Shown here: in pieces, positions 266 to 16,602 of the stretch | Layout: each line of letters begins with the position of its first letter | Numbering within the stretch: position 1 is the stretch's first letter | Source of the DNA: Saccharomonospora viridis DSM 43017 | Lineage (GTDB): Bacteria; Actinomycetota; Actinomycetes; Mycobacteriales; Pseudonocardiaceae | Reading direction: 5' to 3' | DNA: 64,000 nucleotides | Assembly: GCF_000023865.1 (NCBI RefSeq) | Contig: NC_013159.1 | Coordinates: 4,056,001 to 4,120,000 of the forward strand | Program-made: the position numbers and the translations under genes | Notes under the pieces: model-generated | Database searches by the model: none | The model's input: only the letters and a program-made list of their open reading frames with translations | Told to the model about the DNA's origin: nothing

Positions 266-1288
266 TCAGCGCAGGGGGATAGCGGCGGCGTACTGGGGTG
301 TCAACTCCGCACCCAGCGAGGTTTTGACCTGGATCATCTTCTTGCCCAGCACCACGCCGCGTTTGCCCTCGGAGATCGCCCACCGCACCAGTTCGCCGTA
401 CATGTGGAAGTACAGGTCCGGCCTGCCGCCGTCCTCGACCTCGACCGCCGACCACGACCGCGCCAAGGGCCACTGTGGATGGTCGTACACCGTTGTCGCG
501 CCGAGGAGTCGCCGTGTTTCGACGTCACGATAGGACAGCACGAACACGTCGGGCTGTGCCAGCAGTCGGCGCAGATACCCCACGAACTGCGGTAGGGGCA
601 CGATCGGCACGTCACGGTGTTTGACCTCGTTGATGCGCAGCAGCTCCGCCACCTCGACGGCGTCCGCCTGCTCACCCCGGAGGAACTCCACAGCGAGCCC
701 CTCATCGCCTTCCACCTGCGCGAACACCTTGCGCAAATGCGCCCGACGCCTCCGGGACACCGTCTCCAGCCAGTCGTCCCGGCAACCGAACGCCTCGGTG
801 TCGATCCGCGCGATCGGCTCGGTCTCGCGCACCCACCGCCAGCGTCCGGCCACCGCCGGCACGGCGGCCTCGGGGAGCTGTCGGATCAACGCGCCTTTCA
901 ACCCCGGACCGAACAGCCGTCGCATGGCCGGCAGGTATTCGGACAGCAGCCGTCGAACGCCCCCGTCGGTTCCCGCGTCGGCGAACCACCAGGAGGGGAA
1001 CGAGCTACTCCCGGGCGCTCGCAGGTCGAGACCGCCGATGCCCCCACCCCGCCGGGAGACGACGAACCGATGCCGTCGGGTCCGGGAGCCGACCCACGCC
1101 GCACCGACCATGCCCCGCGGTCGCGAACCGTCCAACAACACGGCAAGAGCCCACGGCGTTCGCGCGCACCACGCCTGCTGGCGCAGCACCTCCCACGCCC
1201 AGTCGGCACGCAGTCCCGCACGGGCCCGAAGCTCACGCCAGTACGGTGGTTCCGCGTCGAACCGCGGGTCCAGCACCTCGATGCTCAT
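266..1288 (-). CDS. GNAT/FemAB-like acyltransferase paralogue 1
   Basis: A 340-residue protein, last gene of a five-gene leftward operon. It belongs to a set of four tandem paralogues that share an N-terminal D-P-R...EP..W motif, a central Arg-rich helix after a conserved Trp, an L..(N)...H block, an LYF(D/H)xY motif and a C-terminal (I/L)K..LG...AA(V/I)P motif. The layout resembles double-GNAT acyltransferases of the FemAB/CelD kind, which transfer acyl or aminoacyl groups onto cell-envelope amines; the substrate is unknown. This copy is the most diverged: the SAGR motif of its siblings reads GKKM and the final PRPV is lost. The ATG at 1288 is chosen because it overlaps the upstream stop as ATGA. 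Confidence 0.55.
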   Translation of the reverse strand: MSIEVLDPRFDAEPPYWRELRARAGLRADWAWEVLRQQAWCARTPWALAVLLDGSRPRGMVGAAWVGSRTRRHRFVVSRRGGGIGGLDLRAPGSSSFPSWWFADAGTDGGVRRLLSEYLPAMRRLFGPGLKGALIRQLPEAAVPAVAGRWRWVRETEPIARIDTEAFGCRDDWLETVSRRRRAHLRKVFAQVEGDEGLAVEFLRGEQADAVEVAELLRINEVKHRDVPIVPLPQFVGYLRRLLAQPDVFVLSYRDVETRRLLGATTVYDHPQWPLARSWSAVEVEDGGRPDLYFHMYGELVRWAISEGKRGVVLGKKMIQVKTSLGAELTPQYAAAIPLR

Positions 1289-2289
1289 CCCGCCACCGGC
1301 CTCGGCACCGCGGCGGCCCACCGCCTTCGGGGCTGCAATCCCAACGACTGTTTGAGGTCCAACTTGCCTCGTCCGGCCGACAACCCCGGACGACCGTGCG
1401 CCACGACGTGTCCCATCATGCGGGCGTAGGAGTCGAAGTACAGGTGCTGCTTACCGCCTTCCTCCCTGCTCAACGCGGACCAGTGCTGGTAGAGCGGCAC
1501 GACGGGATGGTCGAGCAGGTTGGCGAAGGCCAACAACCGGCCCGAGCCGTCGTGGTAGGTCAACGACACCACGTCGTCCCGGCGGACGAGTTCGTGCAGG
1601 TATTCGGCCGCTATCGGGCCACGGTTGTCGAGCAGGGGCGGTTTGCCGAACCGCATCCGGTGTCCGTTCACCAATCGGGCCAGCTCGGCGCCGTCGAGAT
1701 CATCACGGGCGGCGGCGAAACGCACCACGATGTCCGGGTCCCGCTCGATCTTGCGTCGCTGGCCGCGAAGACTGTGCCGGCGACTGCGCGCCAAGGAGGA
1801 GATCCACTCGTCCACCGTGTCGAACCGGTTGTCCAGCACGGCCGTGCCCACCGATTCCCGCACCAGCCGCCCGAATCCGGAAACCAGCGACGCGTCCTCG
1901 TCGGACAGGTACCGGTAGAACAGGCCCGTGCACCCCACACCGGCGAATCGGCACAGCTCCCGTTCCATCCTCCGCAGCAGCAGCCTCCTACCCCGGTGGC
2001 TGACCTCGTCGAGGAACGCCCAGCCGGCGAAACCGGACAGCCACGGGTTGTGCACCTCCAGCAGCCGCACCCCGAGCGGGCCGCGCACCATACTGGCGGC
2101 CATCACCCCGGCGAGATGCCCGTCGGCGCTCGCCAGCGCGAGCACCGTCGGGTGCGGTGCATGCCGCGACTCCACACCCAACAGGCCGTAGTCCCACGCC
2201 GCGTGCAGTCGCGCGGCCTTGGCGAACGTCGACCACTCGGCGGGTTCGGGATCGTGCCTTGGGTCGAGCACTGTCACGGAGACGCTCAT
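1285..2289 (-). CDS. GNAT/FemAB-like acyltransferase paralogue 2
   Basis: A 334-residue paralogue of its three neighbours. Visible family marks are VLDPRHDPEP near the N-terminus, WDYGLLGVES, a Trp followed by an Arg-rich helix (SLARSRRHSLR), LVNGHR, LTYH, LYFDSY and the C-terminal LSAGR...LK..LG...AAVPRPV. A frame extension upstream of 2289 exists but its sequence is not family-like, and ATG 2289 forms an ATGA overlap with the stop of the preceding gene. No signal peptide or membrane segment is seen, so the protein is probably cytoplasmic. The function is inferred from the fold-level resemblance only. Confidence 0.55.
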   Translation of the reverse strand: MSVSVTVLDPRHDPEPAEWSTFAKAARLHAAWDYGLLGVESRHAPHPTVLALASADGHLAGVMAASMVRGPLGVRLLEVHNPWLSGFAGWAFLDEVSHRGRRLLLRRMERELCRFAGVGCTGLFYRYLSDEDASLVSGFGRLVRESVGTAVLDNRFDTVDEWISSLARSRRHSLRGQRRKIERDPDIVVRFAAARDDLDGAELARLVNGHRMRFGKPPLLDNRGPIAAEYLHELVRRDDVVSLTYHDGSGRLLAFANLLDHPVVPLYQHWSALSREEGGKQHLYFDSYARMMGHVVAHGRPGLSAGRGKLDLKQSLGLQPRRRWAAAVPRPVAG

Positions 2290-3407
2290 CTGGCCATCAC
2301 CGGCCGCGGCACGGCGACCGACAGCAGGGTGCGGGTGTCGAATCCGAAAGCGGCCTTGAGGTCCAAAAGAGTGCGTCCCGCGGTGATTTCCGGGCGTCCC
2401 ATCTCGATCATCCTTTGTACACAGTGGACGTAAGCATCGGCGTACAGTCGTCGTCGCCCCCCTAGAGCCACAGGCAGCGAGGCCCAATGGGGCAGCGCGA
2501 TCCCCTCCTTGATGTCGATCATGGTGTGGAACGCGATGAGCCTGCCGCCTTCCCGATAGGTACGGGTGACGACCTCGGGCCTGCGGAGGAACGCCTCCAG
2601 GTAGGCGGTGGGCACGGGACTTCGGGTGTCCAGACGCAACCCGGCGATCCTGGTCGGCTGGCCCTCCCGCCAGGCGCGCTCGTCCTGTCGGGCCCGATGC
2701 CGGTTGAGCAGGGCGGCGAGTTCCCCGGCGTCGAGATCGGTGCGGCCCGCGCCCGTGGTGATGTCGAGGTCCGCGGCGTCGTCAAGCACCTCCTGCACGG
2801 CGGCGCGGACAGGCGGCCGCAACGACGCGAACCACTCGTCGACCGAGTCCCACCGGTTGACCAACACGGTGGTGGGGTCGATCTCCCGGCTCAGCCTCCC
2901 CGGGCCCGTCACCTCCCGTGCGATCTCGACGGGCAGGGCCCGGTAGACCACACCGAGCAGCCCGGGGCCGACGTACTCCACGAGTCGCCGTTCGAACAAC
3001 CGCAGCAGCTCCCGCCGCAGCCCGGCCGACACCCTGGCGAGGAACACCACGGCGGGGTGGCCCGAGAACCACGGCAGGCACACCTCGGCCCAGCACGGTG
3101 CGTACCGCCGCCAACGTCCCACGACACGCGGTGCGAACGTCTGCCCCCGCAACGGGGAACACAACATCGCCACACTCGCACCGAGCACCCTGCCGCCCTC
3201 GCGGAACACGGCGAGCACCGGAGGATTACGTGACAGCCACGCCTCCAACCGCAACAGCTCGTAGTCCCACATCGGCCAGGGTGCCGCGCGCCTGCGGAAC
3301 TTCGCCCACCCCGACGGTTCCGGAGCGGACCGGGGATCGACGATCTCCACCTCGATCCTCTGCCCGGTCGATGCGGGACGAGGCCGTTCGGCGAGTGGTT
3401 TCGTCAT
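2286..3407 (-). CDS. GNAT/FemAB-like acyltransferase paralogue 3
   Basis: A 373-residue paralogue, the longest of the four. It carries VEIVDPRSAPEP, WDYELLRLEAW followed by a Asn-Pro-Pro, ALLNRHR, TYREGGRLIAF, RRLYADAYVH and the C-terminal ITAGR..LDLK..FGF....VAVPRPV. The ATG at 3407 overlaps the stop of the upstream gene (ATGA at 3407-3404), which fixes the start. A Cys-containing insertion near residues 90-130 is absent from paralogue 2. It is likely co-translated with its neighbours; substrate unknown. Confidence 0.55.
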   Translation of the reverse strand: MTKPLAERPRPASTGQRIEVEIVDPRSAPEPSGWAKFRRRAAPWPMWDYELLRLEAWLSRNPPVLAVFREGGRVLGASVAMLCSPLRGQTFAPRVVGRWRRYAPCWAEVCLPWFSGHPAVVFLARVSAGLRRELLRLFERRLVEYVGPGLLGVVYRALPVEIAREVTGPGRLSREIDPTTVLVNRWDSVDEWFASLRPPVRAAVQEVLDDAADLDITTGAGRTDLDAGELAALLNRHRARQDERAWREGQPTRIAGLRLDTRSPVPTAYLEAFLRRPEVVTRTYREGGRLIAFHTMIDIKEGIALPHWASLPVALGGRRRLYADAYVHCVQRMIEMGRPEITAGRTLLDLKAAFGFDTRTLLSVAVPRPVMAR

Positions 3408-4471
3408 CGGCCCATCACCGGCCTCGGCACGGCCACCCCGTACACCGGCCTCGGGGTGAAACCCAACTCGTGCTTGATCTCGTGCGGCCTGCGCCCGGCC
3501 GACAGCTCCCGCACGCCCGTCGAGATCATGTGCCGCACGGCCCGCAGGTAGCTGTCGAACAGCAGGTCACGCAAGCCGCCGTCCGCGACCGACAGCGACG
3601 CCCAATGCTGCTTCACAAGGCACCGTGGATGCTCGAGCCACGTGTTGATCGCCAGCAATCTTCCCTCACTGTCGTGGTAGGTCAAGGTGTTCACATCGGA
3701 CCGACGTAGGAAGACGTCGAAGTACGACCCCGACAGCGGGCTACGGGTATCCGAGGCTGGTATGCCGAGCTCGGCCCGGTGTCGGTTGAGCAGGGCCGCG
3801 ACCTCACCGCCGGGCAGGTCCTGCCGCGCCGAACCGCTGCGGACCACCACTCGCCCGCTTTCGACGTGCCGCTGCACCGCGCGTAACGACCGCCGCAGGC
3901 TCGCGCGCCGCGACTTCGACAACCCACTCACCCAGTCGTCCTGATCGGCGAAGGTGTTGCGCAGCACCGACACGGTGTCGACCTGCCGCACCAACCGGCC
4001 CCGGCCGTCGAGGACCGCGGCGAGAGCGGCGTCGACGGAACGGTAGAGCACTCCCGCCGTTCGCATCCCCAGCCGCCGGACCAACGCCCGTTCGAAACGC
4101 CGGAGCACCTCCGCCTTCGCACCGTCGTCCACGCCCTCCCCGAACACGACCCCGGGGAAACCGCTCAACCACGGTTGAGCCACCTCGGCCCACAGCGGCG
4201 ACAGTGACGACATCGACAGCCCGCGACGCTGCGGCGCGAGCGCGTAGGACGATCGGGGCCACAGTCTGCACACGAGCACACACGCACCCGCGATGATCTC
4301 GCCACCACTCCGCGCCACCAGCAACAACGGGGGATTGCGGGCCGCCCACGCCTCCAGCCTGAGCAGTTCGTAGTCCCACACCGCGTGCAAACCCTGCGTC
4401 CGGAAGAACCCGGTCCAGCCGAACGGTTCCGACTCGGTACGGGGGTCGGCGATCTCGACCGACTCGGTCAC
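3404..4471 (-). CDS. GNAT/FemAB-like acyltransferase paralogue 4
   Basis: A 355-residue paralogue, first of the four in transcription order. It shows VEIADPRTESEPFGW, WDYELLRLEAW.ARNPP, a Trp then SGLSKSRRASLRRSL helix, ALLNRHR, LTYHDSEGRLLAINT, LLFDSYLR and the C-terminal LSAGR...IK.ELGF.....VAVPRPV. GTG 4471 is preferred over longer in-frame starts because it overlaps the upstream stop as GTGA and begins directly before the family N-terminus. Same unknown acyl-transfer role as its siblings. Confidence 0.55.
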   Translation of the reverse strand: MTESVEIADPRTESEPFGWTGFFRTQGLHAVWDYELLRLEAWAARNPPLLLVARSGGEIIAGACVLVCRLWPRSSYALAPQRRGLSMSSLSPLWAEVAQPWLSGFPGVVFGEGVDDGAKAEVLRRFERALVRRLGMRTAGVLYRSVDAALAAVLDGRGRLVRQVDTVSVLRNTFADQDDWVSGLSKSRRASLRRSLRAVQRHVESGRVVVRSGSARQDLPGGEVAALLNRHRAELGIPASDTRSPLSGSYFDVFLRRSDVNTLTYHDSEGRLLAINTWLEHPRCLVKQHWASLSVADGGLRDLLFDSYLRAVRHMISTGVRELSAGRRPHEIKHELGFTPRPVYGVAVPRPVMGR

Positions 4472-5274
4472 GGCGACACGACCGGGGTGCCGTGGCGGGG
4501 ACACGGTCGAATCTCCGCGCGCACACCGCCGTCCACGAGAACATCGACCAGCATCGGCGAACGCTGGGTCAGCAGCGTGAACGCCAAGCCGCTCCTCGTG
4601 CGCCGGGCGTAGACGCGGCGCCAGTCCAGATGCCATCGACCGCACTCTCGGAAAGCACCGAAGTAACCCAGCAGCGGGTCGTGGAGCACGCCGTACGGGC
4701 CGCCGTCGAGTTCGGACAGACTGCGATGCGGCAGCCGGTCGATCCGGTGGGCCGATTCCTGTGGCAGCGCCGAACACAGTCGGGCGAGATCCTTGTCGCC
4801 GCCCACGACGAGCACCGGTTCTCCCCGCCGTACCGCGCTCACCAGTTCGACGACCGCTCCGGAGGACGTGTCGTCGGCGAGTGTCTCCGGGTTCACCACG
4901 CAGCCACGCAGGCCACGGGGTAGGTCCACGGGTGGGGTCGGTACCGCCGGATCAACGATCACGACGAGCGTGCCGGGGCGGACCCGTCGTGCGGTGGGCA
5001 GTACCCGGCCCAGGCCCCGGGCCGGATCGATGCGTGTCTCGCCACCCGCGAGCGGCACCAGGTCGACCACGGTGCGAGTGAGCAGCTCGGGTTCGGTCGC
5101 ACCGTCGTGCCTCCCCTTACGACCCGGCACCAACGTCGGTTCCGTTCGCCCGTCGAGCGCCCAACGTTCCCGGTAGAAAGGCACGGTGTTGAAGGCCGAC
5201 AGCACCGCACGGCGGTATGCCGAACGCCACAGCACAGCAGTACTGCGAGGCAACATGGAGTCGCAGTGTGCCAC
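4468..5274 (-). CDS. small protein resembling a shortened PaaK-type adenylation enzyme
   Basis: A 268-residue protein (262 if ATG 5256 is used; neither start has a clear ribosome site) heading the leftward operon. The N-terminal AFNTVPFYRERW matches the opening of phenylacetate-CoA ligase-like (PaaK) adenylate-forming enzymes, and the tail with D..LGYFGAF.ECG..H, a LLTQRSPM segment and CPRHGTP resembles the PaaK C-terminal half. The usual length is about 430 residues, and I cannot find a clear Ser/Thr/Gly-rich ATP loop, so it may be catalytically reduced or only distantly related. It overlaps the first acyltransferase gene by 4 nt, suggesting it activates or presents an acyl donor to them. 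Family call is tentative. Confidence 0.4.
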   Translation of the reverse strand: MAHCDSMLPRSTAVLWRSAYRRAVLSAFNTVPFYRERWALDGRTEPTLVPGRKGRHDGATEPELLTRTVVDLVPLAGGETRIDPARGLGRVLPTARRVRPGTLVVIVDPAVPTPPVDLPRGLRGCVVNPETLADDTSSGAVVELVSAVRRGEPVLVVGGDKDLARLCSALPQESAHRIDRLPHRSLSELDGGPYGVLHDPLLGYFGAFRECGRWHLDWRRVYARRTRSGLAFTLLTQRSPMLVDVLVDGGVRAEIRPCPRHGTPVVSP

Positions 5275-5477
5275 TCCGGGGGCCGGAAAAACGTACCTAC
5301 CGGCCGGAATCGTCCAAACAGATCAGTCCTTCCGTAATGGACACTCGGCCGAACAGCGCAACTTTCCTCGCAACCTCTAGTCACCGTACCGGGTATGGGG
5401 CTTATAAACAGCCAACCCCTCATCCCGGGCGGCGCAACGCGCACCCACACCAGAGCTAGGGAAACCCATGTGTCGCC

Positions 5478-6503
5478 ATGAAGTACGAGAACTCCCGTCC
5501 CCCGTCGGCAGGGCCGCGAACCATCGCGATGACTGAACGCACGAACTATCCCGACGAAACCGGGCTGACAGTCGTCATCCCCTGCTACAACGAGGTCGAC
5601 AACCTCAAGCACTCCTACGACGAGGTCGTCTCCGAACTCGGTGAGTTCGACCTGGAACTGCTCTACGTCGACGACGGCAGCACCGACGGGAGCCTCGACG
5701 TCATCCGAGAACTGGCCGCGGCCGACAGCCGGGTGCAGTACCTGTCGTTCACCCGGAACTTCGGCTTCGAGGCCGCCTTCTCGGCCGGCTACCGCTACGC
5801 GAGCAAACCGTGGATCCTGCACGTGGACGCCGACCAACAGTTCCCCGCCGCCGAGGCGCACAAACTGATCGCGGCCGCCAAGTCCGGATACGACGCGGTG
5901 TTCGGAGTACGGACCAACCGGCAGGACCCACTGTTACGCCGATGGGGCACGGCCGCGTTCCATTTCATCGGACGTCGACTGCTGCGGATCGAACTCCCCC
6001 AGGGCGCCACGGCTTTCCGCCTGGTCCGCACCGAACTCGCCAAGCGGATCGTCGACCTGAACCTCGGCACCCCGTACTTCCTGGCCACCGTCCCACGCCT
6101 GACCAACCGCTACACGACCGTGCCCGTGGCACACCGGGCGCGGCAGCGCGGTGAGTCCAAAGTGGGGATGAGTTTCCTCTCCTCCCACGCCATCGAGCTG
6201 TTCGTCGGATTCAGTCGTCGACTCAGTACGGCGGCGTCGGTCTCGTGTCTGCTGGCGGGCGGCCTGGCCCTGCTGCTCGCCATCGCGGGCGCCACGGGAC
6301 TCGTGACCGGCGCTCCCCTGCTCGTCGCGCTGCTCGTCCTACTCGCCGTGGCGTTGGTGACGCTGTCGTTGACCGTGCGTTCGCTCGTCGTCGTGAACGC
6401 CGGACAACCGCGTCCCCGACTGTTCTACATCAGGGAGGCCAGCATCCCCGTGGACGACGCCGACAGGTTGCTCAGCACGTCACCGACCTTGGAAACCGTA
6501 TGA
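5478..6503 (+). CDS. family 2 glycosyltransferase with C-terminal membrane anchor (DPM1/GtrB-like)
   Basis: A 341-residue polyprenol-phosphate-glycosyltransferase-like enzyme. The GT-A domain shows VIPCYNE (33-39), YVDDGSTDGS (63-72) and the metal/nucleotide DAD motif (117-119). The C-terminus has two hydrophobic segments (about 235-260 and 270-300), as in enzymes that charge undecaprenyl phosphate with a sugar at the inner membrane face. It opens the rightward operon; the next gene starts inside its stop (ATGA). ATG 5478 is used; ATG 5529 is an alternative start just before the conserved domain. Confidence 0.8.
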   Translation: MKYENSRPPSAGPRTIAMTERTNYPDETGLTVVIPCYNEVDNLKHSYDEVVSELGEFDLELLYVDDGSTDGSLDVIRELAAADSRVQYLSFTRNFGFEAAFSAGYRYASKPWILHVDADQQFPAAEAHKLIAAAKSGYDAVFGVRTNRQDPLLRRWGTAAFHFIGRRLLRIELPQGATAFRLVRTELAKRIVDLNLGTPYFLATVPRLTNRYTTVPVAHRARQRGESKVGMSFLSSHAIELFVGFSRRLSTAASVSCLLAGGLALLLAIAGATGLVTGAPLLVALLVLLAVALVTLSLTVRSLVVVNAGQPRPRLFYIREASIPVDDADRLLSTSPTLETV

Positions 6504-7735
6504 GAAGAACACTCGTCGTGCTCGGCGGCGCTGACGGCTCCGTCAACGTCTACCGCCGGGCGCGGGAACTCGGGTACCACACCATTTGCGTCGACATCAG
6601 ACCCAACGCCCCCGGCGTGGCCGTGGCGGACGAATACCTGCAGCTCAGTGTGCGGGCACCGGAGCGGATCGACTCGGCACTGGGCTCCCGCACCGACATC
6701 GCCGGGGTGATCTGTCCCGCCAGCGACGTCGGGCTTCCGACGCAGGCATGGTTGGCGAAGAAGTGGGGCCTGCCCTCTCCCCTGCCTCCCGCCGCCGTCG
6801 AGGCGTCCGTGGACAAGCCGGTGTTCCGCTCGGTGTGTGAACGCGCAGGCGTCCCCACCTACCGCAGCGTCTCGGGTTCCTCGGGGGAGGAACTGGTGGA
6901 GGCGGCCCGCCACCTCCGTTTCCCGGCGCTGGTGAAACCCGTGGACTCGTCCGGCAGCCGTGGGGTCGTCTCGTGCGCGGACCCCGGCAAACTCCGCTCG
7001 GCGGTGGCCGAATCGTTGACGTTCTCCCATCGGGGACGCGTGGTCGTCGAGGAACACCTGGACGGCCGACACCTGACGATCGAGGCGCTGGTCGTGGACG
7101 GCGAGATCGTGTTCCACGCCGTCACCGAACGCACCATCACGCCACCGCCGCTGTTCGTCACCACGGCCCACCTGATGCCCGTCGAACTCCCCGCCGAGGT
7201 CGCCGCGGCACTGCCCGACATGCTGGCCGCCGTGTGCGCGGAACTCGGCTACCGCACCGGGCCGCTGACGTTCGACGCCGTCCTCGGCCGCGACGGCAAG
7301 CTGTACCTGATCGAGATGGGTGCCCGCATGGGCGGCAACGGCATCGCCGAAGTGGTGGAGAGCTGCTACGGCGTGGACCTCATGGCGGCCACCATGTCGC
7401 TCGCCGTGGGCGAGCAGCCGACGATCGTCAGCAAACCACCCACGCCGACACTGGTGCACATCCTCGCCTCAGACCGCACGGGACGTCTCTGCGGCATCGA
7501 CGGTGTCGACGAGGTGCGCGCCATGCCGGAAGTGCTCGCACTGCACCTGTTCGTCCACGAAGGAGACCTCGTCCGTCCCTACGAACAGGCGGGCCACAAG
7601 CTCGGATACGTCGTCGTGTCCGCCGAGTCGGTGGACCGACTGTGGGCGGCCGAAAGCGCGGTGCGCGGCACCCTGAAGTTCCGCCTGGCCAACCAGGGCG
7701 ACGGCGAACAGGATCTGGCGGTGCCTCTCCCTTGA
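6500..7735 (+). CDS. ATP-grasp family ligase
   Basis: A 411-residue ATP-grasp enzyme, forming an amide or ester through an acyl-phosphate. The N-terminal Rossmann-like part begins LVVLGGADGSVNVYRRARELGY, then a lysine-containing ATP-grasp core FPALVKPVDSSGSRGV (about residues 140-157), VVVEEHLDG, and the Mg-binding LYLIEMGARMGGNG with Glu and Asn near 270-280. The arrangement is like carbamoyl-phosphate-synthase-type and amino-acid ligases such as BacD. ATG 6500 overlaps the glycosyltransferase stop. The substrate is unknown; context suggests adding an amino acid or amine to a lipid-linked saccharide or a small precursor. Confidence 0.75.
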   Translation: MRRTLVVLGGADGSVNVYRRARELGYHTICVDIRPNAPGVAVADEYLQLSVRAPERIDSALGSRTDIAGVICPASDVGLPTQAWLAKKWGLPSPLPPAAVEASVDKPVFRSVCERAGVPTYRSVSGSSGEELVEAARHLRFPALVKPVDSSGSRGVVSCADPGKLRSAVAESLTFSHRGRVVVEEHLDGRHLTIEALVVDGEIVFHAVTERTITPPPLFVTTAHLMPVELPAEVAAALPDMLAAVCAELGYRTGPLTFDAVLGRDGKLYLIEMGARMGGNGIAEVVESCYGVDLMAATMSLAVGEQPTIVSKPPTPTLVHILASDRTGRLCGIDGVDEVRAMPEVLALHLFVHEGDLVRPYEQAGHKLGYVVVSAESVDRLWAAESAVRGTLKFRLANQGDGEQDLAVPLP

Positions 7736-9045
7736 GCACGTCCCCGTCCATGGCGGCACCGCTGCGCCCACTGATGATCCTGCGGTTACTCGCGGGACGC
7801 GGCGTTTTCCGGGTCGGCGTGCAGCTCATGGCCGTGGCGCTGCTCGCGATCTGGGGTACCGCGACCTACGGCGAATACGCCAACGCCTGGGGTACGTGTG
7901 CCTGGCTGGTGTTCCTGCCCACGGCGGCGGAGAAGGCCGCGCTGAAGATCCTGCCGAGGACCCGCCTCACGACGGTGGTACTGGCGGGTCTGACACTGCG
8001 GATCGCCGCAACGCCCGTGGTGGTCCTGGCCGTCGCGTTGGCGTTCGCCGTGGTCGTCGCGCCGTCGTCGACCGCCACGCTCTATCTGGCCTCGGGGACC
8101 TGGTCGGCGTGTACGGGCCTGTTGATGACGTTGTCGGGTCTGCACCGACTCCGCGGCCGACCGGCGCTCGACGCGGCGGCGTTCACGGTCGTCGCCGTGG
8201 CCGTCGCGGTGGTGACGACCATGACGTGGCTGTCCGGCTGGTCACCGCACACCCACCTACTCATCCTGGTGGGTGCGATCGCCGTGGTCATCGGATGCTC
8301 CCTGTCGGCTCTGCCGAACGAATGGCTGCGCGCCCCCAAACCCGACCGGCCGAGGCTGACGCGGGCCTTCGGTCGCAGCACGGTCCTGCTCGGCATCACC
8401 GAACTGCTGGACGCGCTCACCCTCTCCGCGCTCTTCCTCGTGTTCGCCTTGAGCGGGCGAATGGTGGACAGCGGCCCGTTCCACCTCGCGTTGCTCGCCG
8501 CGGGCGTGTTGTGTTCGCTCGCGCTCTACCAACTCAAACTCAGGCAACCGTCGACGTCGGTGAGCCTGCGAGGTGTCGGAGGCGCGACGGGACGGGCGCG
8601 GGCCGAACGGTTGTTGCGTGCGGCCGAGTTCACGGGAGCGGGTTTCGCCGTCGCGCTCGTCGCGGCGTTGCTCGTGCCGGCTACCAGACAGGCGCTACTG
8701 ACCGGGGCCGACATACCGATGACCGCGTCGGGCTACGTCGTCCTCGTCGTGCTCGCCGTCGTGGAGATCGCCATGTCGATCCTGCTCATCTACGCCGGCT
8801 ACCTCGTGGAGAACACCGACAGCCAGGTGTTGTCGTCCACCGCGGCGGCCGCCGTGATACGGCTGGCGGCCACGGTCGCATGCGCGTTGGTGTTGGCCCC
8901 GCCGCTCGGCGCCGTCGGCGGTTTCTGCGCCCTCACCCTCGGCCTTGCCGCCGAGGCCGTGGCGTTACGCCGTCTGCTGCGCCGCCTTCACCACGAACCC
9001 CGGAGCGCCCGGGCCTCGATTTTCCGGTCCACATCCCACAAGTAA
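7732..9045 (+). CDS. polytopic membrane protein, polysaccharide flippase-like
   Basis: A 437-residue integral membrane protein with about 11-12 hydrophobic helices spread over its length and few charged loops, consistent with the MOP/Wzx flippase type that moves lipid-linked saccharides across the membrane. No diagnostic motif is visible, so the family is inferred from topology and from the glycosyltransferase and ligase beside it. The TTG at 7732 makes a TTGA overlap with the ATP-grasp gene; ATG 7750 is an alternative start. Confidence 0.6.
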   Translation: MSTSPSMAAPLRPLMILRLLAGRGVFRVGVQLMAVALLAIWGTATYGEYANAWGTCAWLVFLPTAAEKAALKILPRTRLTTVVLAGLTLRIAATPVVVLAVALAFAVVVAPSSTATLYLASGTWSACTGLLMTLSGLHRLRGRPALDAAAFTVVAVAVAVVTTMTWLSGWSPHTHLLILVGAIAVVIGCSLSALPNEWLRAPKPDRPRLTRAFGRSTVLLGITELLDALTLSALFLVFALSGRMVDSGPFHLALLAAGVLCSLALYQLKLRQPSTSVSLRGVGGATGRARAERLLRAAEFTGAGFAVALVAALLVPATRQALLTGADIPMTASGYVVLVVLAVVEIAMSILLIYAGYLVENTDSQVLSSTAAAAVIRLAATVACALVLAPPLGAVGGFCALTLGLAAEAVALRRLLRRLHHEPRSARASIFRSTSHK

Positions 9046-9070
9046 GTAGTGAGACAGGTTGGAGCTGCCC

Positions 9071-10888
9071 ATGTATGTCCTCGGCATCAGCAGGGTGCAC
9101 GATTCCGCCGCGGCCCTCGTTCGGGATGGCGAGATCATCGCCTTCGCCGAGGAGGAACGGTTCACCCGGGTCAAACACGACGGACGGCTGCCCGTCAAGG
9201 CCATCGAGTTCTGTCTGAAACAGGCGGGCATCACGCTCGGCGACGTCGACCACGTCGCCTACTACTGGACCCGGTGGGCCGAAGCCGTCCACGCCGCGAA
9301 GGTGTTCGCCCGATACTTCCCGAAGACACTGGAGGTCTTCCGCAACGAGAACGGTGACGACGGCGGCAAGGCGGCGGGCCTGATCGAGACGATGCGCACC
9401 GGTGGCGGCAAGGGCGTGGACGACTACCACGCGGGCGGCGCGGTGCTGGCGCACATCAAGCGGTCGTTCACGCTCGAACGGGACATCAAGGAAGCCCTCG
9501 GATACGCGGGGCCGACGAAGTTCAAGGTGCACCTCATCGACCACCATCGAGCCCATGCGGGCAGCGCCTACTACATCTGTCCGTGGGAGGAGGCGGCCGT
9601 CCTCACCCTCGACGGCATCGGCAGCGACGGCACCAGCGTGCTGCTCGCACACGGCAGGGGTAACCGCATCCACGATCTGCGGCGCATCAAGTTCCCCCAC
9701 TCGCTCGGCGCGATGTACGCCGCCGTGACCGGCTACCTCGGCTTCTACCCGACGCGGGACGAGGGCAAGGTCATGGGTCTCGCGCCGTTCGGCAAGGACA
9801 CCTACGTGGAGGCGTTCCGCGAGCTGATCCACCTCGACCCGGACGGCGGCTTCGAACTCGATCTGAGCTGGTTCCGCCACCACACCACGGCCAAACATCT
9901 GTTGTCGAAGAAGTTCTACGACACGTTCGGCCCCGCCCGGCCCCGGACGCGGGTGACGGCCGAGAACCCCGTACCGCAGCACTATTGCGACATCGCCTAC
10001 GCGCTGCAGGTGACCTTGGAGGAGGCCGGTCTGCACCTGGCGCGTTGGCTGCAACGGCAGACGGGGTCCAAGCGGTTGGCCATGGCGGGTGGGGTGGCCC
10101 TCAACAGCGTGATGAACGGGCGCATCCTGCTGGAGACGCCGTTCGAGGAGTTCTTCGCCCAACCAGCGGCGGCCGACGACGGCTGCGCCCTCGGCGCCGC
10201 GCTGGAGGTCACCGTCGGCAAGCACAACCTGCCCCGCCCACGCGACGGGTTCACCTACACCGGCCCCGAATTCACCGAGGCCGAGATGGAGCAGGCGTTG
10301 CAGGACGCGGGCGTGGAGTACCGGCGGATCGACGACATCGCGAAGCACACGGCCGACAGGATCGCCAACGGTCTCATCGTGGGTTGGTTCCAGGGCCGGA
10401 TGGAATGCGGGCCCCGGGCGCTGGGCAACCGTTCGCTGCTGGCCGATCCACGGGACCCCGAGTCCAAGACCCGTATGAACGAGAAGGTCAAGCACCGTGA
10501 GGCGTTCCGACCGTTCGCCCCGTCGTGCCTGGCCGAACGGTCGGGCGAGTTCTTCGCCAGCGACTACCCCTCGCCGGTGATGCTGCTGGTCTTCGACGTC
10601 CTCGAACACCAACGCGACGTCGTTCCGGCCATCACCCATGTGGACGGCACGGCCCGCGTGCAGACGGTGAGCAAGGACGACAACCCGCTCTACTACGAGC
10701 TGATCGAGAACTTCGAACGGCTCACGGGCGTGCCCATGGTGATGAACACGTCGTTCAACGACAACGACGAGCCGATCGTGGCCACTCCGGAGGATGCCAT
10801 CAAATGCTTCCTCAAAACCGACATCGACGCGTTGGCGCTGGGTCCGTTCTGGACGCAGAAGCCACACCTGGAGGACGAACAGTCATGA
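9071..10888 (+). CDS. O-carbamoyltransferase, NodU/CmcH/TobZ family
   Basis: A 605-residue carbamoyltransferase that transfers the carbamoyl group of carbamoyl phosphate, through carbamoyl-AMP, to a hydroxyl. The N-terminal Kae1-like part begins YVLGISRVHDSAAALVRDG and holds the metal-binding DHHRAHAGSAYY histidines and LTLDGIGSDGTS. The C-terminal YrdC-like part has ECGPRALGNRSLLADPRD, a FRPFAPS block and MNTSFNDNDEPI. Length matches the family. A GGAG ribosome site lies 6 nt before ATG 9071. In context it most likely carbamoylates a sugar on the product of this locus. Confidence 0.9.
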   Translation: MYVLGISRVHDSAAALVRDGEIIAFAEEERFTRVKHDGRLPVKAIEFCLKQAGITLGDVDHVAYYWTRWAEAVHAAKVFARYFPKTLEVFRNENGDDGGKAAGLIETMRTGGGKGVDDYHAGGAVLAHIKRSFTLERDIKEALGYAGPTKFKVHLIDHHRAHAGSAYYICPWEEAAVLTLDGIGSDGTSVLLAHGRGNRIHDLRRIKFPHSLGAMYAAVTGYLGFYPTRDEGKVMGLAPFGKDTYVEAFRELIHLDPDGGFELDLSWFRHHTTAKHLLSKKFYDTFGPARPRTRVTAENPVPQHYCDIAYALQVTLEEAGLHLARWLQRQTGSKRLAMAGGVALNSVMNGRILLETPFEEFFAQPAAADDGCALGAALEVTVGKHNLPRPRDGFTYTGPEFTEAEMEQALQDAGVEYRRIDDIAKHTADRIANGLIVGWFQGRMECGPRALGNRSLLADPRDPESKTRMNEKVKHREAFRPFAPSCLAERSGEFFASDYPSPVMLLVFDVLEHQRDVVPAITHVDGTARVQTVSKDDNPLYYELIENFERLTGVPMVMNTSFNDNDEPIVATPEDAIKCFLKTDIDALALGPFWTQKPHLEDEQS

Positions 10889-11625
10889 CGGCCACGGCAC
10901 CCACGACACCCACGCCCCGGCCCGAGCACGGCTCGGGTGCGGGGGCGAACGTGATTCGCGCGCTCTACCGGCAGCGACGCTGGCTGTGGCTGGTGTTCGC
11001 GGTGCCGGCGGCCGCGCTCGCGGTGCTCATCATGGTGGTCCTGCCACCGGATCAGACACTGGACGACCTGGGCGAATGGCTGTTCAAACTCAGCCCTTTC
11101 CTGTTCGCCGTACCGGCGGTGGCCCTGTTCCCGCAGGTGCGCATGGCGCCCGTGCTGATCGCCTTCGCCGTGCTCGTCTACATGGGCTGGCTCGACACCG
11201 AGCTGGTCCTGCGGGTACAGGAGTTCGCCCGCAACGCCGAGGTCGAGGGCTCGTTCGAACCGGTGTACCAATGGGAGTTGTTCATCACGACGTTCATCGT
11301 GTTGTTCGCCCTGATGGCGTACCGACTCGGCGGGGCGCGCACGGCCACGGTGCTCAAGACCGGCGTCGCGAGCATCCTCATCGTCATCTCCGGGCTCAAC
11401 GACCTGACGTTCTGGGCGTTGAACGAGGTGTGGGCGGCGGGCAGCAGACCCGACGAACTGGCCTGGGCGTCACATATCGTGGTGTTCGTGGGTGGGCCGC
11501 CGAGCGTGACCACCGCCGTCGTGTTCCTGCTCGTGCACCTCGTGCTGGCAGCCGCGGTGCTCGCACTACCGCTGGGCAAGTGGGTGGACCGCGCCGTCGG
11601 AAGGACCACCCCGAAAGCCCACTGA
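10885..11625 (+). CDS. membrane protein of unknown function
   Basis: A 246-residue protein with a proline/threonine-rich N-terminal tail of about 25 residues, then roughly six membrane helices. Start ATG 10885 lies in the stop of the carbamoyltransferase gene (ATGA), so it is part of the same operon. I recognise no family. A conserved-looking GLNDLTFW segment sits between helices 4 and 5. It may be an export or acceptor component of the glycoconjugate pathway; that is inference from position only. Confidence 0.7.
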   Translation: MTATAPTTPTPRPEHGSGAGANVIRALYRQRRWLWLVFAVPAAALAVLIMVVLPPDQTLDDLGEWLFKLSPFLFAVPAVALFPQVRMAPVLIAFAVLVYMGWLDTELVLRVQEFARNAEVEGSFEPVYQWELFITTFIVLFALMAYRLGGARTATVLKTGVASILIVISGLNDLTFWALNEVWAAGSRPDELAWASHIVVFVGGPPSVTTAVVFLLVHLVLAAAVLALPLGKWVDRAVGRTTPKAH

Positions 11626-11683: not shown

Positions 11684-11837
11684 CCGGACACGCACACTGT
11701 CCGTGTCAAGGGGAACACGCGAAAGGCCGACCTCCGGTTGCTTGCCCTCCCGTAATCAATCATGATCAACTTGTGACCGGCGTATGGGGCGCGACATGAC
11801 CGCCCTACCGGCGACGACGAAGGGTGGTAGGACCATC

Positions 11838-12476
11838 ATGACCCAGAAACTCGGCCCCGAGGTGGAGCTCGACCCCGAGGTCGAATACGTCGTGCTGTGC
11901 GGCACGCGACATGAACGCATCGGGTACGCGCCGAAAGCCGAGGTCCATCACCAATCCACCCCCCTTCACCTGGCCTTCTCCTGCTACCTGTTCGACGCCG
12001 ACGGCAACTTCCTGGTCACCTGGCGGGCCAAGCACAAGCCCACCTTCCCGGGCGTACGCACCAACTCCTGCTGCGGCCACCCCGGCCCCGGCGAGAGCAT
12101 CCCGGATGCGATCGCCAGGCGGTTGACCGACGAACTCGGTATCGCCGCCGATCGCATCGAACTGATGCTGCCCGAATTCACCTACGAGGCGGCCATGCCC
12201 GACGGGACACGGGAGAACGAGGTGTGTCCCGTCTACCGCGCCACGGTCGCCACTCGGCCCGAACCCGAGCCGAACCCGGACGAGGTCCACGACACGGAAT
12301 GGGTTCCGTGGGAGAAGTTCCTGGCCGAAGTGGACGCAGACCCCACGAGTGTGTCCCCGTGGTGCGCACTCCAAGTCGAACAACTCCGCGCGCTCGGCCC
12401 CGACCCGCTCACCTGGCCGGTCGCTGAGAACCAGCGACTGCCCGAAGTCGCCCGAGAGCCGTTGGAAAAGCGCTGA
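11838..12476 (+). CDS. idi: isopentenyl-diphosphate delta-isomerase (type I)
   Basis: A 212-residue Nudix-fold enzyme that interconverts isopentenyl and dimethylallyl diphosphate. Visible marks are TPLHLAFSCYLFD, the catalytic cysteine in TNSCCGHP (Cys79), the Nudix-type helix GESIPDAIARRLTDELG, and the catalytic glutamates in ENEVCPVY (Glu126, Glu128). ATG 11838 is chosen over longer in-frame starts because a GGTGGTAGGA site sits just upstream and the family alignment begins here. It stands alone between the surface locus and the conservon; its product DMAPP is the donor for the prenyltransferase encoded 6 kb downstream. Confidence 0.93.
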   Translation: MTQKLGPEVELDPEVEYVVLCGTRHERIGYAPKAEVHHQSTPLHLAFSCYLFDADGNFLVTWRAKHKPTFPGVRTNSCCGHPGPGESIPDAIARRLTDELGIAADRIELMLPEFTYEAAMPDGTRENEVCPVYRATVATRPEPEPNPDEVHDTEWVPWEKFLAEVDADPTSVSPWCALQVEQLRALGPDPLTWPVAENQRLPEVAREPLEKR

Positions 12477-12671: not shown

Positions 12672-15191
12672 GTGAAGAACGAAGACAAGTCAACACAGGA
12701 CACGTCACAGCAGGGACACCACAAGTCGATCCGCAAGCGGCTGACAGGCACTGTGCTGGTTCCCAGTGTCGCGCTCCTGCTGTTGTGGATCATCATGTCG
12801 GCGTACTTCGTCGCCGACGCGTTCTACGTGCGCGCGGTGGCTTCGAGTGTGCAGCAGGTGTCGATCCCCGCCGTCACCTCGCTGGGCGCGGTGCAGCAGG
12901 AACGTCAACTGTCCCTTGTATATCTGGATGAACCGGATACGGGCCTGGCGGAGCTGCAACAACAGCAGCAGAAGATCGACACATCCCTCGCCACGCTCCG
13001 AGAGGCGATGGAGTCGATCAAGGGCGACGTTCCCGGCGAGATCGCGGGTCGTATGACCGACCTGGAGTCCCAGCTCGACGAACTGCCGGACGTGCGCACG
13101 CAGATCAACGTCAGGAGCCTCTCCCCCGACGAGGTCAACGAGTACTACAACAAGCTCATCGACACGGCTGCCGGCCTGTTCGACGCCCAGGCCCGCACCG
13201 TGCCGGACGTCGAGGCCAGCCAGAACGGCATCACGGCCACCGGGCTGTTCCGCGCGTCCGACCAGATGTCACGCGCCGCCTCGCTGGCGACGAGCGCCCT
13301 CGTCAACAAGACGTTCACGTCGAACGATCACCGCGCGTTCTCCCAGTTCGTCGGCGCCTACCGCTCGTCGTTGGAAGACCTGGCGCCGAACATGCTTCCC
13401 GAGGCGCACGCCCAGTACAAGGCGCTGACCTCGGGTGAGGACTGGAGACGACTGCAGGAGATCGAGAACCAGCTCATCGCCCACGGCCCGGGCCCCATCG
13501 ACTACAGCGTTCTTTCCTTCAACGACGTCGAACTGCGAGAACTGTCCGGTCGGGTCTCCACGGAACTGTCGGCGCTGACCACGGCCCAGGCCGACAAGAC
13601 CTCGGTGAAGGCGCTGGACGACAGCGGTCAGAACCTGACCAACGTTCTGTTGGGTAGCGCTCTGACGCTCATCGCGGCCATCGCGTCGATCATCGTCGCC
13701 GTGCGGGTGTCGCGCACGCTGGTGGACCGCACCCTGATGACCCGCCTCGAACGACTGCGCAACGACTCGCTCGAACTGGCCCGGACCCGCCTGCCGAGCA
13801 TCGTGGAACGGCTGAAGTCGGGCGAACCGGTGGACGTGGAGGCGGAACTGCCGAGACTGGACCACGGCCGGGACGAGATCGGCCAGGTCGCCGAGGCGTT
13901 CAACCTCGCCCAGCTCACCGCGGTCAACGCGGCCGTCAGTGAGGCCAAGGCCCGTAGCGGCGTGAACAACGTGTTCCTCGGCATCGCCCACCGCAACCAG
14001 GGCCTGGTGCACCGTCAGCTGCAGATCCTCGACCGGATGGAGAGCCGGGAGGAGAACCCGGAACAGCTCAAGAGCCTGTTCCAACTCGACAACCTCGCCA
14101 CCCGAGCCCGACGCACCACCGAGAACCTCATCATTCTCGGCGGCAAGCAGCCGGGACGTCGTTGGCGTAAGCCGGTCATGCTGATCGACGTGCTGCGAGC
14201 CGCGATCTCGGAGACCGAGCACTTCTCGCGGGTGGAGGTCGAGCCCATCCCGAACGTGGCGTTGCTCGGTTCGGCAGTGGCCGACACCATTCACCTCGTC
14301 GCCGAGCTGGTGGACAACGCCACCACGTTCTCGCCCCCCGGTTCCCCGGTCTACATGACCGGGACGAAGGTCGCGCGTGGCGTTGTCGTGGACATCGCCG
14401 ACCAAGGCCTCGGTATGAAGGACGAGGTGCGCGAATGGGCGAACAAGATGATGTCCGAACCGCCCGAGTTCGACGCCATGGCCATGAAAGCCGATGCGAG
14501 CCTCGGTCTGTTCGTGGTCGCACGGCTGGCCACACGGCTCGGTGCCCACGTCACGTTCGACTCCTCACGCTACGGCGGTACCCGCGCCACCGTGCTGTTG
14601 CCGACATCCATCCTGGCCCCTGAGGACCAGGCCACCGACGTGGACTCGGGCTTCCACGCGAGCCTGCCGAAGGAGCCGGAGATCGAAACCCACAAGCCGG
14701 GTAAGCCGAGGACCGGGTCGACAGCCCTCACCGGCGCGATCCCAACCTCCGCGACACCGACCGACACAGCACAAAACAGCACCCCGTCGACGGCCACCGC
14801 GACGGCCGCCCCGTCCGGGTCGTCCACGGTGTCGACGACCAACCCGCCCACCGTCGCGACGTCGACGGGGTCGAACGGCTCGGGCAGGACGATGTCGCCC
14901 ACCGCGGAACCCTCGGGGACGAACGGCGCCGCCCACTCCGGTGGCGCATCGACGACCGCCGAACCGTCGGGGACGACCAACGGCCTGCCCCAACGCAGGC
15001 GGCGACGTGCACCGTTGCCGCAGCGGCGTCCCCAGGAGAACCTCGCCCCGCAACTGCGCGAGGACCCCGATGCCGAGCACAGTGACATCGACCGGTTCGC
15101 CGGCAGGACTCGCAGCACTCTGTCGGCGTTCCGCAAGGGCACTCTCAGAGGACGTGACGCGGACGGTTCCGCACAACCGACCGACGAATGA
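12672..15191 (+). CDS. cvnA: conservon CvnA-type sensor kinase-like protein
   Basis: An 839-residue membrane sensor with a histidine-kinase-like ATPase domain. One membrane helix lies near residues 30-52, an extracytoplasmic sensing region of ~270 residues (nitrate-sensor-like) follows, then a second helix near 322-345, a HAMP-like linker, a dimerisation segment with AHRNQGLVHRQL, and an HATPase core with ELVDNATTFSPP (N box) and DQGLGM (G1 box). The last ~170 residues are Ser/Thr/Pro-rich and presumably disordered. It leads a cvnABCD operon; in Streptomyces conservons the four proteins form a membrane GTPase-linked signalling complex. GTG 12672 follows a GGAG site. Confidence 0.9.
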   Translation: MKNEDKSTQDTSQQGHHKSIRKRLTGTVLVPSVALLLLWIIMSAYFVADAFYVRAVASSVQQVSIPAVTSLGAVQQERQLSLVYLDEPDTGLAELQQQQQKIDTSLATLREAMESIKGDVPGEIAGRMTDLESQLDELPDVRTQINVRSLSPDEVNEYYNKLIDTAAGLFDAQARTVPDVEASQNGITATGLFRASDQMSRAASLATSALVNKTFTSNDHRAFSQFVGAYRSSLEDLAPNMLPEAHAQYKALTSGEDWRRLQEIENQLIAHGPGPIDYSVLSFNDVELRELSGRVSTELSALTTAQADKTSVKALDDSGQNLTNVLLGSALTLIAAIASIIVAVRVSRTLVDRTLMTRLERLRNDSLELARTRLPSIVERLKSGEPVDVEAELPRLDHGRDEIGQVAEAFNLAQLTAVNAAVSEAKARSGVNNVFLGIAHRNQGLVHRQLQILDRMESREENPEQLKSLFQLDNLATRARRTTENLIILGGKQPGRRWRKPVMLIDVLRAAISETEHFSRVEVEPIPNVALLGSAVADTIHLVAELVDNATTFSPPGSPVYMTGTKVARGVVVDIADQGLGMKDEVREWANKMMSEPPEFDAMAMKADASLGLFVVARLATRLGAHVTFDSSRYGGTRATVLLPTSILAPEDQATDVDSGFHASLPKEPEIETHKPGKPRTGSTALTGAIPTSATPTDTAQNSTPSTATATAAPSGSSTVSTTNPPTVATSTGSNGSGRTMSPTAEPSGTNGAAHSGGASTTAEPSGTTNGLPQRRRRRAPLPQRRPQENLAPQLREDPDAEHSDIDRFAGRTRSTLSAFRKGTLRGRDADGSAQPTDE

Positions 15192-15216
15192 TCGATAGGG
15201 AAGTGGATCTCAAGCG

Positions 15217-15633
15217 ATGAACGACAACAGCAACTCCACGTCGGACCTCAACTGGTTGCTGGATGACATGGTGGACCGCGTAGTCGGCGCCCAGCACGCC
15301 GTGGTGCTGTCCGCTGACGGTCTGTTGATGGGCAAGTCGAGCGCACTGTCCAAAGACGACTCCGATCAGCTGTCCGCGATGGCTTCCAGCCTGCAGAGCC
15401 TCGCCAAAGGAGTCAGCCGCCACTTCCAACGAGGCCCGGTACTGCAGACCCTCATCGAGATGACCGAGGGCTACTTGTTCGTGTCCGCCGCGGGCACCGG
15501 GGCCTGCCTCGCCGTCCTCGCCGAGGAGTCGGTGGACGTCGAGATGATCGCTTACGAAATGAACCGACTCGTGAAGCGCGTCGGTGACTTCATGTCCGCC
15601 GCTCCGAGGAACGAGGTGGCCTCAGAAACGTGA
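15217..15633 (+). CDS. cvnB: conservon CvnB, roadblock/LC7 domain protein
   Basis: A 138-residue cytoplasmic roadblock/LC7 protein, read from the LNWLLDDMV...AQHAVVLSADGLL opening and the MTEGYLFVSAAG...CLAVLAEE strand pair typical of the fold. Such proteins act as partners or GTPase-activating factors of the CvnD/MglA-type GTPase. It lies 25 nt after cvnA and overlaps cvnC by a GTGA junction. Confidence 0.92.
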   Translation: MNDNSNSTSDLNWLLDDMVDRVVGAQHAVVLSADGLLMGKSSALSKDDSDQLSAMASSLQSLAKGVSRHFQRGPVLQTLIEMTEGYLFVSAAGTGACLAVLAEESVDVEMIAYEMNRLVKRVGDFMSAAPRNEVASET

Positions 15634-16001
15634 CCATGGACGACCAGTGGTACGACGAGGCAGCGGGTCCCCTCATCCGTCCCTACGCCATCACCAAGGG
15701 ACGGATCCCGGCTTCGGACGTCGCACTCGACATCGCCACCCAGGTGATGGCGCTGTCCGGGATCAAACGAGACCCGGTGGGGCTCACCCCGGAACATCAC
15801 GCCATCCTCGAACTGGCCGAGCGACCGTTGTCGATCGCCGAGATCGCGGCTCATCTCAAAGTTCCGATCGCCGTGGCCAAGGTGTTGTGCGGTGATCTCA
15901 TCGAACGTGGCGATGTGATCGTGCGTTCCCCCACCCAACCGATGAAAGCTCCAGATCGTCAATTACTTCAGGCGGTGCTCGATGGCCTCTCCCAGCTCTG
16001 A
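15630..16001 (+). CDS. cvnC: conservon CvnC, DUF742 protein
   Basis: A 123-residue DUF742 protein with the signature GPLIRPYAITKGR near the N-terminus and a winged-helix-like second half (SIAEIAAHLKVPIAVAKVL) ending in an ERGDVIV strand. GTG 15630 overlaps the cvnB stop; ATG 15636 is an alternative. The last 20 nt overlap the start of cvnD, so the three small genes are likely translated in a coupled way. Confidence 0.9.
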   Translation: MTMDDQWYDEAAGPLIRPYAITKGRIPASDVALDIATQVMALSGIKRDPVGLTPEHHAILELAERPLSIAEIAAHLKVPIAVAKVLCGDLIERGDVIVRSPTQPMKAPDRQLLQAVLDGLSQL

Positions 16002-16593
16002 CGAGACCGCGGCGACAGCCGTGGTACCCACCCCAGTCAAGATCATCATTGCCGGCGGGTTCGGCGCCGGTAAGACGACCATGGTGGGCTCGGTCAGTGA
16101 GATTCCGCCACTGTCCACCGAAGAACTGATGACCACGGCCAGCGCCGGCATCGACGACACCACCGGGGTCGAGCAGAAGAAGACCACCACGGTCGCACTC
16201 GACTTCGGACGTATCACCATCTCGCCGCACACGGTGCTGTACCTGTTCGGCACGCCGGGGCAGGACCGTTTCTGGTACATGTGGGACGAGCTCGCGCGTG
16301 GTGCCATCGGCACGGTGGTGCTTGTGGACACCCGCCGACTCGACAGCAGCTTCGCGGCGATCGACTTCTTCGAACGTCGGGGCATCCCGTTCATCGTCGC
16401 GGTGAACTGCTTCGACGGCTCGGACGAGTACACCGAGGAGGAGATCCGGGAGGCCCTGGCCATCTCGCCGGGTATCCCGATCATCTTCTGCGACGCGCGG
16501 CAGCGGGAGTCGAGCAAACTCGCACTCATCCGACTGGTGCGGTACGCGATGAGCAGGCTCCCGGAACCGGAGATGGCTTCCTCGGGCGCGTGA
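15982..16593 (+). CDS. cvnD: conservon CvnD, small GTPase
   Basis: A 203-residue GTP-binding protein of the conservon type. The P-loop GGFGAGKT is at 25-32, the switch II-equivalent LFGTPGQDRF follows, and NCFD plus a C-terminal SSKLA replace the classical NKxD and SAK motifs, as usual in CvnD. It closes the conservon operon and is followed by a strong terminator. Its state likely reports CvnA signals to downstream partners not encoded here. Confidence 0.92.
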   Translation: MASPSSDETAATAVVPTPVKIIIAGGFGAGKTTMVGSVSEIPPLSTEELMTTASAGIDDTTGVEQKKTTTVALDFGRITISPHTVLYLFGTPGQDRFWYMWDELARGAIGTVVLVDTRRLDSSFAAIDFFERRGIPFIVAVNCFDGSDEYTEEEIREALAISPGIPIIFCDARQRESSKLALIRLVRYAMSRLPEPEMASSGA

Positions 16594-16602
16594 CCGCCTG
16601 AA

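Follow-up and report, generated by a model that had tools for sequence, protein, structure and literature searches.

A sharply bounded ten-gene locus in Saccharomonospora viridis and its putative pathway to an exported, amide-tailored sugar

What do ten tightly packed genes make when they encode a row of acyltransferases, a lipid-carrier glycosyltransferase, a ligase and a carbamoyltransferase side by side? The genes occupy positions 266–11625 of a 64,000-nucleotide stretch of Saccharomonospora viridis DSM 43017 (contig NC_013159.1, positions 4,056,001 to 4,120,000; hereafter the window), and an earlier note on this DNA had proposed that they form one pathway for a carbamoylated, acylated surface compound. 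We confirmed the ten genes as two divergent operons of five genes each, and their co-inheritance, their joint presence or absence at one site and fusions between two of them support a single unit serving a single pathway. On balance, we lean toward a pathway that builds a polyprenyl-linked sugar, tailors it by aminoacylation or acylation and by carbamoylation, and flips it to the outside. The genes, the region between the operons and the right-hand flank are as follows (window coordinates).

266..1288, minus strand: g1, FemAB-like GNAT acyl- or aminoacyltransferase, paralog A, 340 amino acids (clade placement and invariant Lys322)
1285..2289, minus strand: g2, FemAB-like GNAT, paralog B, 334 amino acids (PF13480 match)
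2286..3407, minus strand: g3, FemAB-like GNAT, paralog C, 373 amino acids (38–41% identity with g2 and g4)
3404..4471, minus strand: g4, FemAB-like GNAT, paralog D, 355 amino acids, GTG start (PF04339 match below cut-off)
4468..5274, minus strand: g5, PaaK/CapK-fold protein lacking both ATP P-loop and C-terminal domain, at most 268 amino acids
5275..5528, no strand: shared divergent promoter region with conserved blocks (five-locus alignment)
5529..6503, plus strand: g6, GT2 of the polyprenyl-phosphate sugar transferase type (PF00535, hydrophobic C terminus)
6500..7735, plus strand: g7, ATP-grasp ligase with a LAL_C2 domain (PF18603, PF13535)
7750..9045, plus strand: g8, polytopic membrane protein, flippase-like by position (hydrophobic segments, gene order)
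9071..10888, plus strand: g9, NodU/CmcH/TobZ-type carbamoyltransferase, 605 amino acids (PF02543, PF16861)
10885..11625, plus strand: g10, membrane protein of an unnamed family, a marker of the whole system
11784..12476, plus strand: presumed isopentenyl-diphosphate isomerase-like (idi) flank gene, the right boundary, outside the system

Across a sample of 150 genomes of the family, g8 occurs in 23 (a count that leaves out two very weak matches, in G016 and G049) and g10 in the same 23; g5 is present in all 23, with one weak partial match elsewhere (G136), and the close g9 clade (E ≤ 1e-150) in 20 of them. These four genes, for which the co-occurrence check was run, are not scattered, and the proposal of a shared pathway survived it. 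When 20 kb were fetched around the loci of 22 relatives, 18 contained g9 and four lacked it, and in the 18 g9-bearing loci the GNAT and g5 genes lie on the strand opposite to the genes from GT2 to g10. A congener, G062, has no g5, g8, g10 or close g9 anywhere in its genome and none of the ten genes at the corresponding site, where only 226 bases separate the two genes that flank the locus in the window at positions 261 and 11784, the left one of which we take to be homocysteine-methyltransferase-like. Intact flanks around this empty site place the borders of the module at almost exactly 266–11625. Each of the enzyme classes is common alone, and the same genome holds another carbamoyltransferase gene, 41% identical to g9, as might be expected if unrelated polysaccharide genes had come to lie together by chance; this explanation is refuted by near-perfect co-occurrence, an order kept in many genera, presence or absence at one site and gene fusions, and we give it negligible weight.

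The near-universal 4-nucleotide coupling described in the earlier note is found, with the chosen starts, at six of the eight same-strand junctions (g1/g2, g2/g3, g3/g4, g4/g5, g6/g7 and g9/g10, each overlapping in ATGA or GTGA), with gaps of 14 nucleotides between g7 and g8 and 25 between g8 and g9. This count depends on the starts, because the later ones that our codon-score script favored for g3, g5, g7 and g10 would turn the g3/g4, g6/g7 and g9/g10 overlaps into short gaps. Codon-position GC content is coding-like in all ten genes (for example 0.66/0.43/0.90 in g9). At cut-off, g5, g8 and g10 matched no Pfam family. None of the ten proteins matched a PADLOC model of anti-phage defense at E 0.001.

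Wider sampling with a g10 profile scan and two g10 peptide patterns, taking one genome per species, gave 63 named loci, a lower bound. By tblastn, GT2 and ATP-grasp are each present in 62 of these loci, g8 in 57, a GNAT in 56 and g5 in 48, and 55 hold GT2, ATP-grasp, g8, GNAT and g10 together. Hosts include Saccharomonospora, Amycolatopsis, Prauserella, Goodfellowiella, Actinophytocola, Actinokineospora and Acrocarpospora, and further Nonomuraea, Streptosporangium, Dactylosporangium, Streptomyces, Nocardia, an Acidimicrobiales metagenome-assembled genome and the alphaproteobacterium Kiloniella. The locus of Kiloniella majae (L086, the single Kiloniella locus scanned with Pfam) is an operon that reads two nucleoside diphosphate (NDP)-sugar epimerase-type genes, GT2, ATP-grasp, g10, GNAT and a protein with a sub-cut-off match to PF01943, and its GNAT passes both PF13480 and PF04339. 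Conservation of gene set and order in so many genera is far from chance, and g10 is rare class-wide (8 of 296 genomes, counting our own). The samples are not independent, as 18 of the 22 genome-sample loci (L024–L045) share DNA with named loci L049–L111; genes were called by the codon-score script, which missed genes in low-GC loci, one of which was re-listed by open reading frames.

Some relatives have elaborated the set. In Acrocarpospora (L078 and L079, about 15610–20539), a second, rearranged partial core of ATP-grasp, GT2, g10, epimerase and GNAT lies within about 4 kb of the first, which suggests two related products, and in Actinophytocola (L040:10887-15551) another ATP-grasp, two GNATs and another g5 lie beyond g10, a layout that looks like extension of the pathway by module duplication. 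A membrane protein of the sodium/hydrogen-exchanger type (L088:13289-14773; PF00999, with L088 the one locus scanned) groups by sequence clustering with proteins of 7 of 61 loci, six from Streptomyces and one from Sphaerisporangium, and perhaps serves transport or self-protection.

Which chemistry do the core enzymes imply? The GT2 class of g6 is firm (PF00535, 103.8 bits), and with a C-terminal hydrophobic segment (232–292) it combines a GT2 domain and a membrane segment, in keeping with the polyprenol-type enzyme that had been proposed. We rejected g6 as an equivalog of PgfS or ArnC, as its NCBIfam scores of 119 bits for PgfS (cut-off 500) and 86 bits for ArnC-type PRK10714 (cut-off 529) are both far below the cut-offs. 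The ATP-grasp assignment of g7 likewise held, with the L-amino-acid-ligase-type domain pair present (PF18603, LAL_C2, 60 bits; PF13535, 53.7 bits; both above cut-off) and structure matches to PDB 4dim, 3vot and 4wd3. In 10 of 85 loci under a strict test (8 without two strains fetched twice), GT2 and ATP-grasp form a single open frame, a fusion from which it follows that the two enzymes probably handle one shared intermediate. An NDP-sugar epimerase family lies near GT2 in 35 of 61 relatives' loci, a count from all-against-all clustering with Pfam run on few members, and a UDP-galactopyranose mutase lies near GT2 in an Acrocarpospora locus.

The resemblance of g6 to PgfS/ArnC-type enzymes speaks for a rival reading, decoration of an existing wall polymer, in which GT2 would make a polyprenyl-phosphate sugar, g8 would flip it and g10 or an unlinked GT-C enzyme would attach the modified sugar to a polymer of the arabinogalactan or teichoic acid kind. 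A scheme of GT-A enzyme, flippase and GT-C enzyme in Gram-positive bacteria is set out in the introduction of one source (PMC13390465) and would suit such a route. We nevertheless consider it distinctly unlikely: no GT-C or GtrA protein was recognised among the ten genes or the scanned Kiloniella genes, occurrence in an alphaproteobacterium speaks against a single Gram-positive wall polymer, and four GNATs with an ATP-grasp ligase and a carbamoyltransferase exceed what one sugar needs.

The four FemAB/GNAT-like acyltransferases of the earlier note stand with weaker support. Only g2 exceeds a Pfam cut-off (PF13480, 41.2 bits against 22), g4 matches PF04339 (FemAB_like) below cut-off (E 0.00099), and g1 and g3 join them through pairwise identity, which is 27–41% among the four. 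In a FastTree phylogeny of members from the family loci and the window, the g1 clade gathers 19 of 19 members (support 0.98), the g2 clade 16 of 16 (0.99), the g3 clade 17 of 17 (0.84) and the g4 clade 14 of 17 (0.78), and as old, distinct paralogs the four should have different jobs; four GNATs are present in 13 of the 22 family relatives' loci and two or three in the others. All 130 aligned GNATs keep residue Lys322, in a C-terminal G-x6-K motif (4 of 134 were dropped by length). According to the available part of a 2026 review (PMC12945691), the key residue in GNAT-fold transferases that depend on aminoacyl-tRNA is a lysine, Lys305 in FemXWv and Lys329 in DhpH-C; the equivalence of Lys322 with FemXWv Lys305 is one of motif position, with no structural basis. 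This conserved lysine makes an aminoacyl-tRNA donor for g1–g4 plausible. The enzymes are like FemXWv, DhpH-C, PacB and Orf11 of BD-12 in their weak FemAB_like/PF13480 similarity and invariant lysine in G-x6-K, and in Streptomyces relatives a lysyl-tRNA synthetase (LysRS)-like gene in the same cluster extends the likeness; they differ in standing as up to four paralogs in a row with a polyprenyl-type GT2 and a carbamoyltransferase, and their tRNA use is putative.

Next to this battery, g5 had been called a shortened adenylation-like protein, of which the PaaK fold, recognisable in the N-terminal region, and the shortening stand, whereas adenylation is improbable. Both P-loop and C-terminal domain are absent from g5 and 11 other aligned g5 proteins and kept in nine full-length PaaK-like proteins of relatives in the same alignment; g5 differs from the PaaK/CapK AMP ligases (PaaK1, NatL2, AjiA1) by these losses and by that of the RYxxGD segment. 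With the PaaK P-loop and C-terminal domain gone, it is unlikely to activate any substrate, and its sequence indicates a probably non-adenylating protein.

The carbamoyltransferase g9 is the most conserved gene of the locus (77–92% identical to its counterparts in 19 further genomes, which span six genera). Full-length matches to Carbam_trans_N (PF02543, 203 bits, cut-off 24) and Carbam_trans_C (PF16861, 242 bits, cut-off 27) bear out the NodU/CmcH assignment, and the nearest solved structures are TobZ, GdmN and decarbamoylnovobiocin carbamoyltransferase; g9 shares both domains with the NodU/CmcH/TobZ/GdmN O-carbamoyltransferases and differs from them as a distinct clade within this system. By tblastn it is present in 31 of the 63 named loci, which makes carbamoylation a tailoring step of some lineages: it is a lineage add-on, and not the core trait for which the earlier note had taken it.

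Might the genes instead make a small, water-soluble molecule for secretion, such as a streptothricin/BD-12-type antibiotic or signal? The nearest solved relatives of g9 (the decarbamoylnovobiocin enzyme, TobZ and GdmN) belong to antibiotic pathways. BD-12 is carbamoylated, and the locus has both a Fem-like transferase class and a carbamoyltransferase, for which an amino sugar is a putative acceptor; nonribosomal peptide synthetase genes belong to streptothricin/BD-12 type clusters, and the ten genes contain no such domains. The molecule would be a Fem-aminoacylated, carbamoylated amino sugar exported by g8, with the lipid link absent or transient. The patchy distribution in the family and the class fits a specialised metabolite, Streptomyces relatives carry a BesD-type halogenase, and there is a precedent in Orf11 of the BD-12 pathway, a GNAT-fold, Gly-tRNA-dependent enzyme that converts streptothrisamine to glycylthricin (PMC12945691, available part). 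A membrane-type GT2 in nearly every named locus, g8 in most of them, and a ten-gene set in which we recognised no resistance gene and no exporter of the ABC or MFS kind make this explanation the less likely one in our view, though still a serious rival.

Of the two membrane proteins, g8 has 10 hydrophobic segments in a simple scan and lies beside a lipid-carrier glycosyltransferase, and its designation as flippase-like holds by position. No polysaccharide-flippase Pfam family appears among the matches of 23 members at E 1, and no PDB profile matched. Its positional counterpart in Kiloniella matches PF01943 at E 3.9e-5, below cut-off, which supports g8 as a flippase-like member. In g10, residues Y128, R147, D173 and H197 are conserved and H218 is near-invariant, polar positions that form a candidate active site.

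Streptomyces relatives add lysine-related genes to this core. One encodes a class I LysRS-like protein; the two halves of its profile both find matches at the cluster in four Streptomyces genomes and one Streptosporangium genome, and the Actinokineospora loci hold only a shorter relative of the protein. The Streptomyces loci also encode full-length PaaK-like proteins; in S. toyocaensis the AMP-binding matches are below the Pfam cut-off and the P-loop is kept. By the all-against-all clustering used for the epimerase family, with Pfam run on few members, a BesD-type halogenase is present in 8 of 61 loci (six Streptomyces, two Streptosporangium; for example L105:6890-7645 and L088:6959-7714), and the S. 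wuyuanensis protein agrees with PDB 7u6i (Halogenase B) at 251 of 251 residues. The available part of a halogenase review (PMC8407142) describes chlorination of lysine by SwHalB, the HalB of S. wuyuanensis, and assigns BesD to the beta-ethynylserine pathway; we take the 7u6i protein and SwHalB to be the same. The S. wuyuanensis locus is thus a relative with a lysine halogenase of the SwHalB/BesD kind, and the window's locus differs in having none. These halogenase-bearing relatives give SwHalB a candidate pathway, near a class I LysRS-like gene.

Taken together, the enzyme classes suggest a sequence of steps. At the inner membrane face, g6 would charge polyprenyl phosphate with a sugar, using an NDP-sugar as donor, and g7 would join an amine by an amide bond to the sugar unit or to an acid that the sugar bears. 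The four GNATs would then attach amino acids or acyl groups; a plausible donor is aminoacyl-tRNA, which FemX and DhpH use, and g5 perhaps acts as a partner or substrate-holding protein. Carbamoylation of the sugar by g9, probably on oxygen, may follow. The product would then be flipped by g8, while g10 would work at the lipid-phosphate end, for instance to release or transfer it. The predicted outcome is a small glycoconjugate outside the membrane that is carbamoylated and bears several aminoacyl groups. Wzx-dependent and GtrA/GtrB three-component systems are alike in joining a lipid-carrier GT2 to a polytopic membrane protein, whereas here no polymerase, chain-length protein, GtrA or GT-C was recognised, and the heavy amide, acyl and carbamoyl tailoring is this locus's own.

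Several results weigh against this pathway. Searched alone, g1 and g3 had no Pfam match, the GNAT profile matched no solved structure, g6 falls short of the GT2 equivalog cut-offs and g8 has no sequence link to any flippase family. In G045, an Actinokineospora with two related loci, g8 and g9 lie on separate contigs, and by tblastn the g9-bearing locus shows no g8. Lysine-related genes stand at the locus only in relatives and are absent from that of the window, whose own genome has no PF01921 match and a single partial match to the lysine-halogenase family PF23169 (G000:C1:2871985-2872431, 58.8 bits, cut-off 26) about 1.2 Mb away. No polymerase, GT-C or ligase was recognised in the locus to indicate the product's destination, so the surface compound of the earlier note does not stand as stated, and the absence of a recognised polymerase or ligase among the ten genes leaves room for a secreted product.

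The surroundings of the operons offer further observations. Between them, GCCGAAC.GC.CAACTT and GCTTATAAACAGCCA are identical in all five aligned Saccharomonospora-type loci, and the CAACTT...GTC pair could be a candidate extracytoplasmic-function sigma promoter. Immediately downstream, positions 12672–16593 hold a set of sensor-kinase-like, Roadblock/LC7, DUF742 and GTPase-like (PF03029) genes, presumably resembling an actinobacterial conservon; among the loci examined, the sensor-kinase-like gene adjoins the locus only in Saccharomonospora-type loci. A tRNA-Lys (TTT) gene at 19679–19754 lies 8 kb from the locus; its proximity to a pathway that may use aminoacyl-tRNA is probably coincidence.

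Each step of the favored pathway has known relatives, and the whole set is without a description among the literature matches listed, which cover few subscription papers, in agreement with the earlier note, which had recognised no described system with these genes. More tentatively, the locus may belong to an unnamed class of exported products, polyprenyl-linked or lipid-released sugars with amide-linked chains built by Fem-like batteries from tRNA-charged and sometimes halogenated amino acids. Such a class, which we regard as possible, would share a five-protein core of GT2, ATP-grasp, g10, g8 and GNAT, present in many actinobacteria and in one or more genera of alphaproteobacteria, and its tailoring would vary by lineage: carbamoyl here and chlorolysine in Streptomyces. 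If so, the partner types would include g5-type PaaK-fold proteins without an ATP site and aminoacyl-tRNA synthetase-like proteins, and the natural pathway of SwHalB would be found. Amycolatopsis, one of the host genera, includes antibiotic producers. The locus defines a pathway that is conserved and has sharp borders, three of its proteins lie outside Pfam at cut-off, and its relatives place a solved lysine halogenase, for which the literature matches listed, as far as their available text goes, give no pathway, beside enzymes of assembly and export. The purpose of chlorolysine and the donor used by tandem Fem-like enzymes thereby become directly testable.

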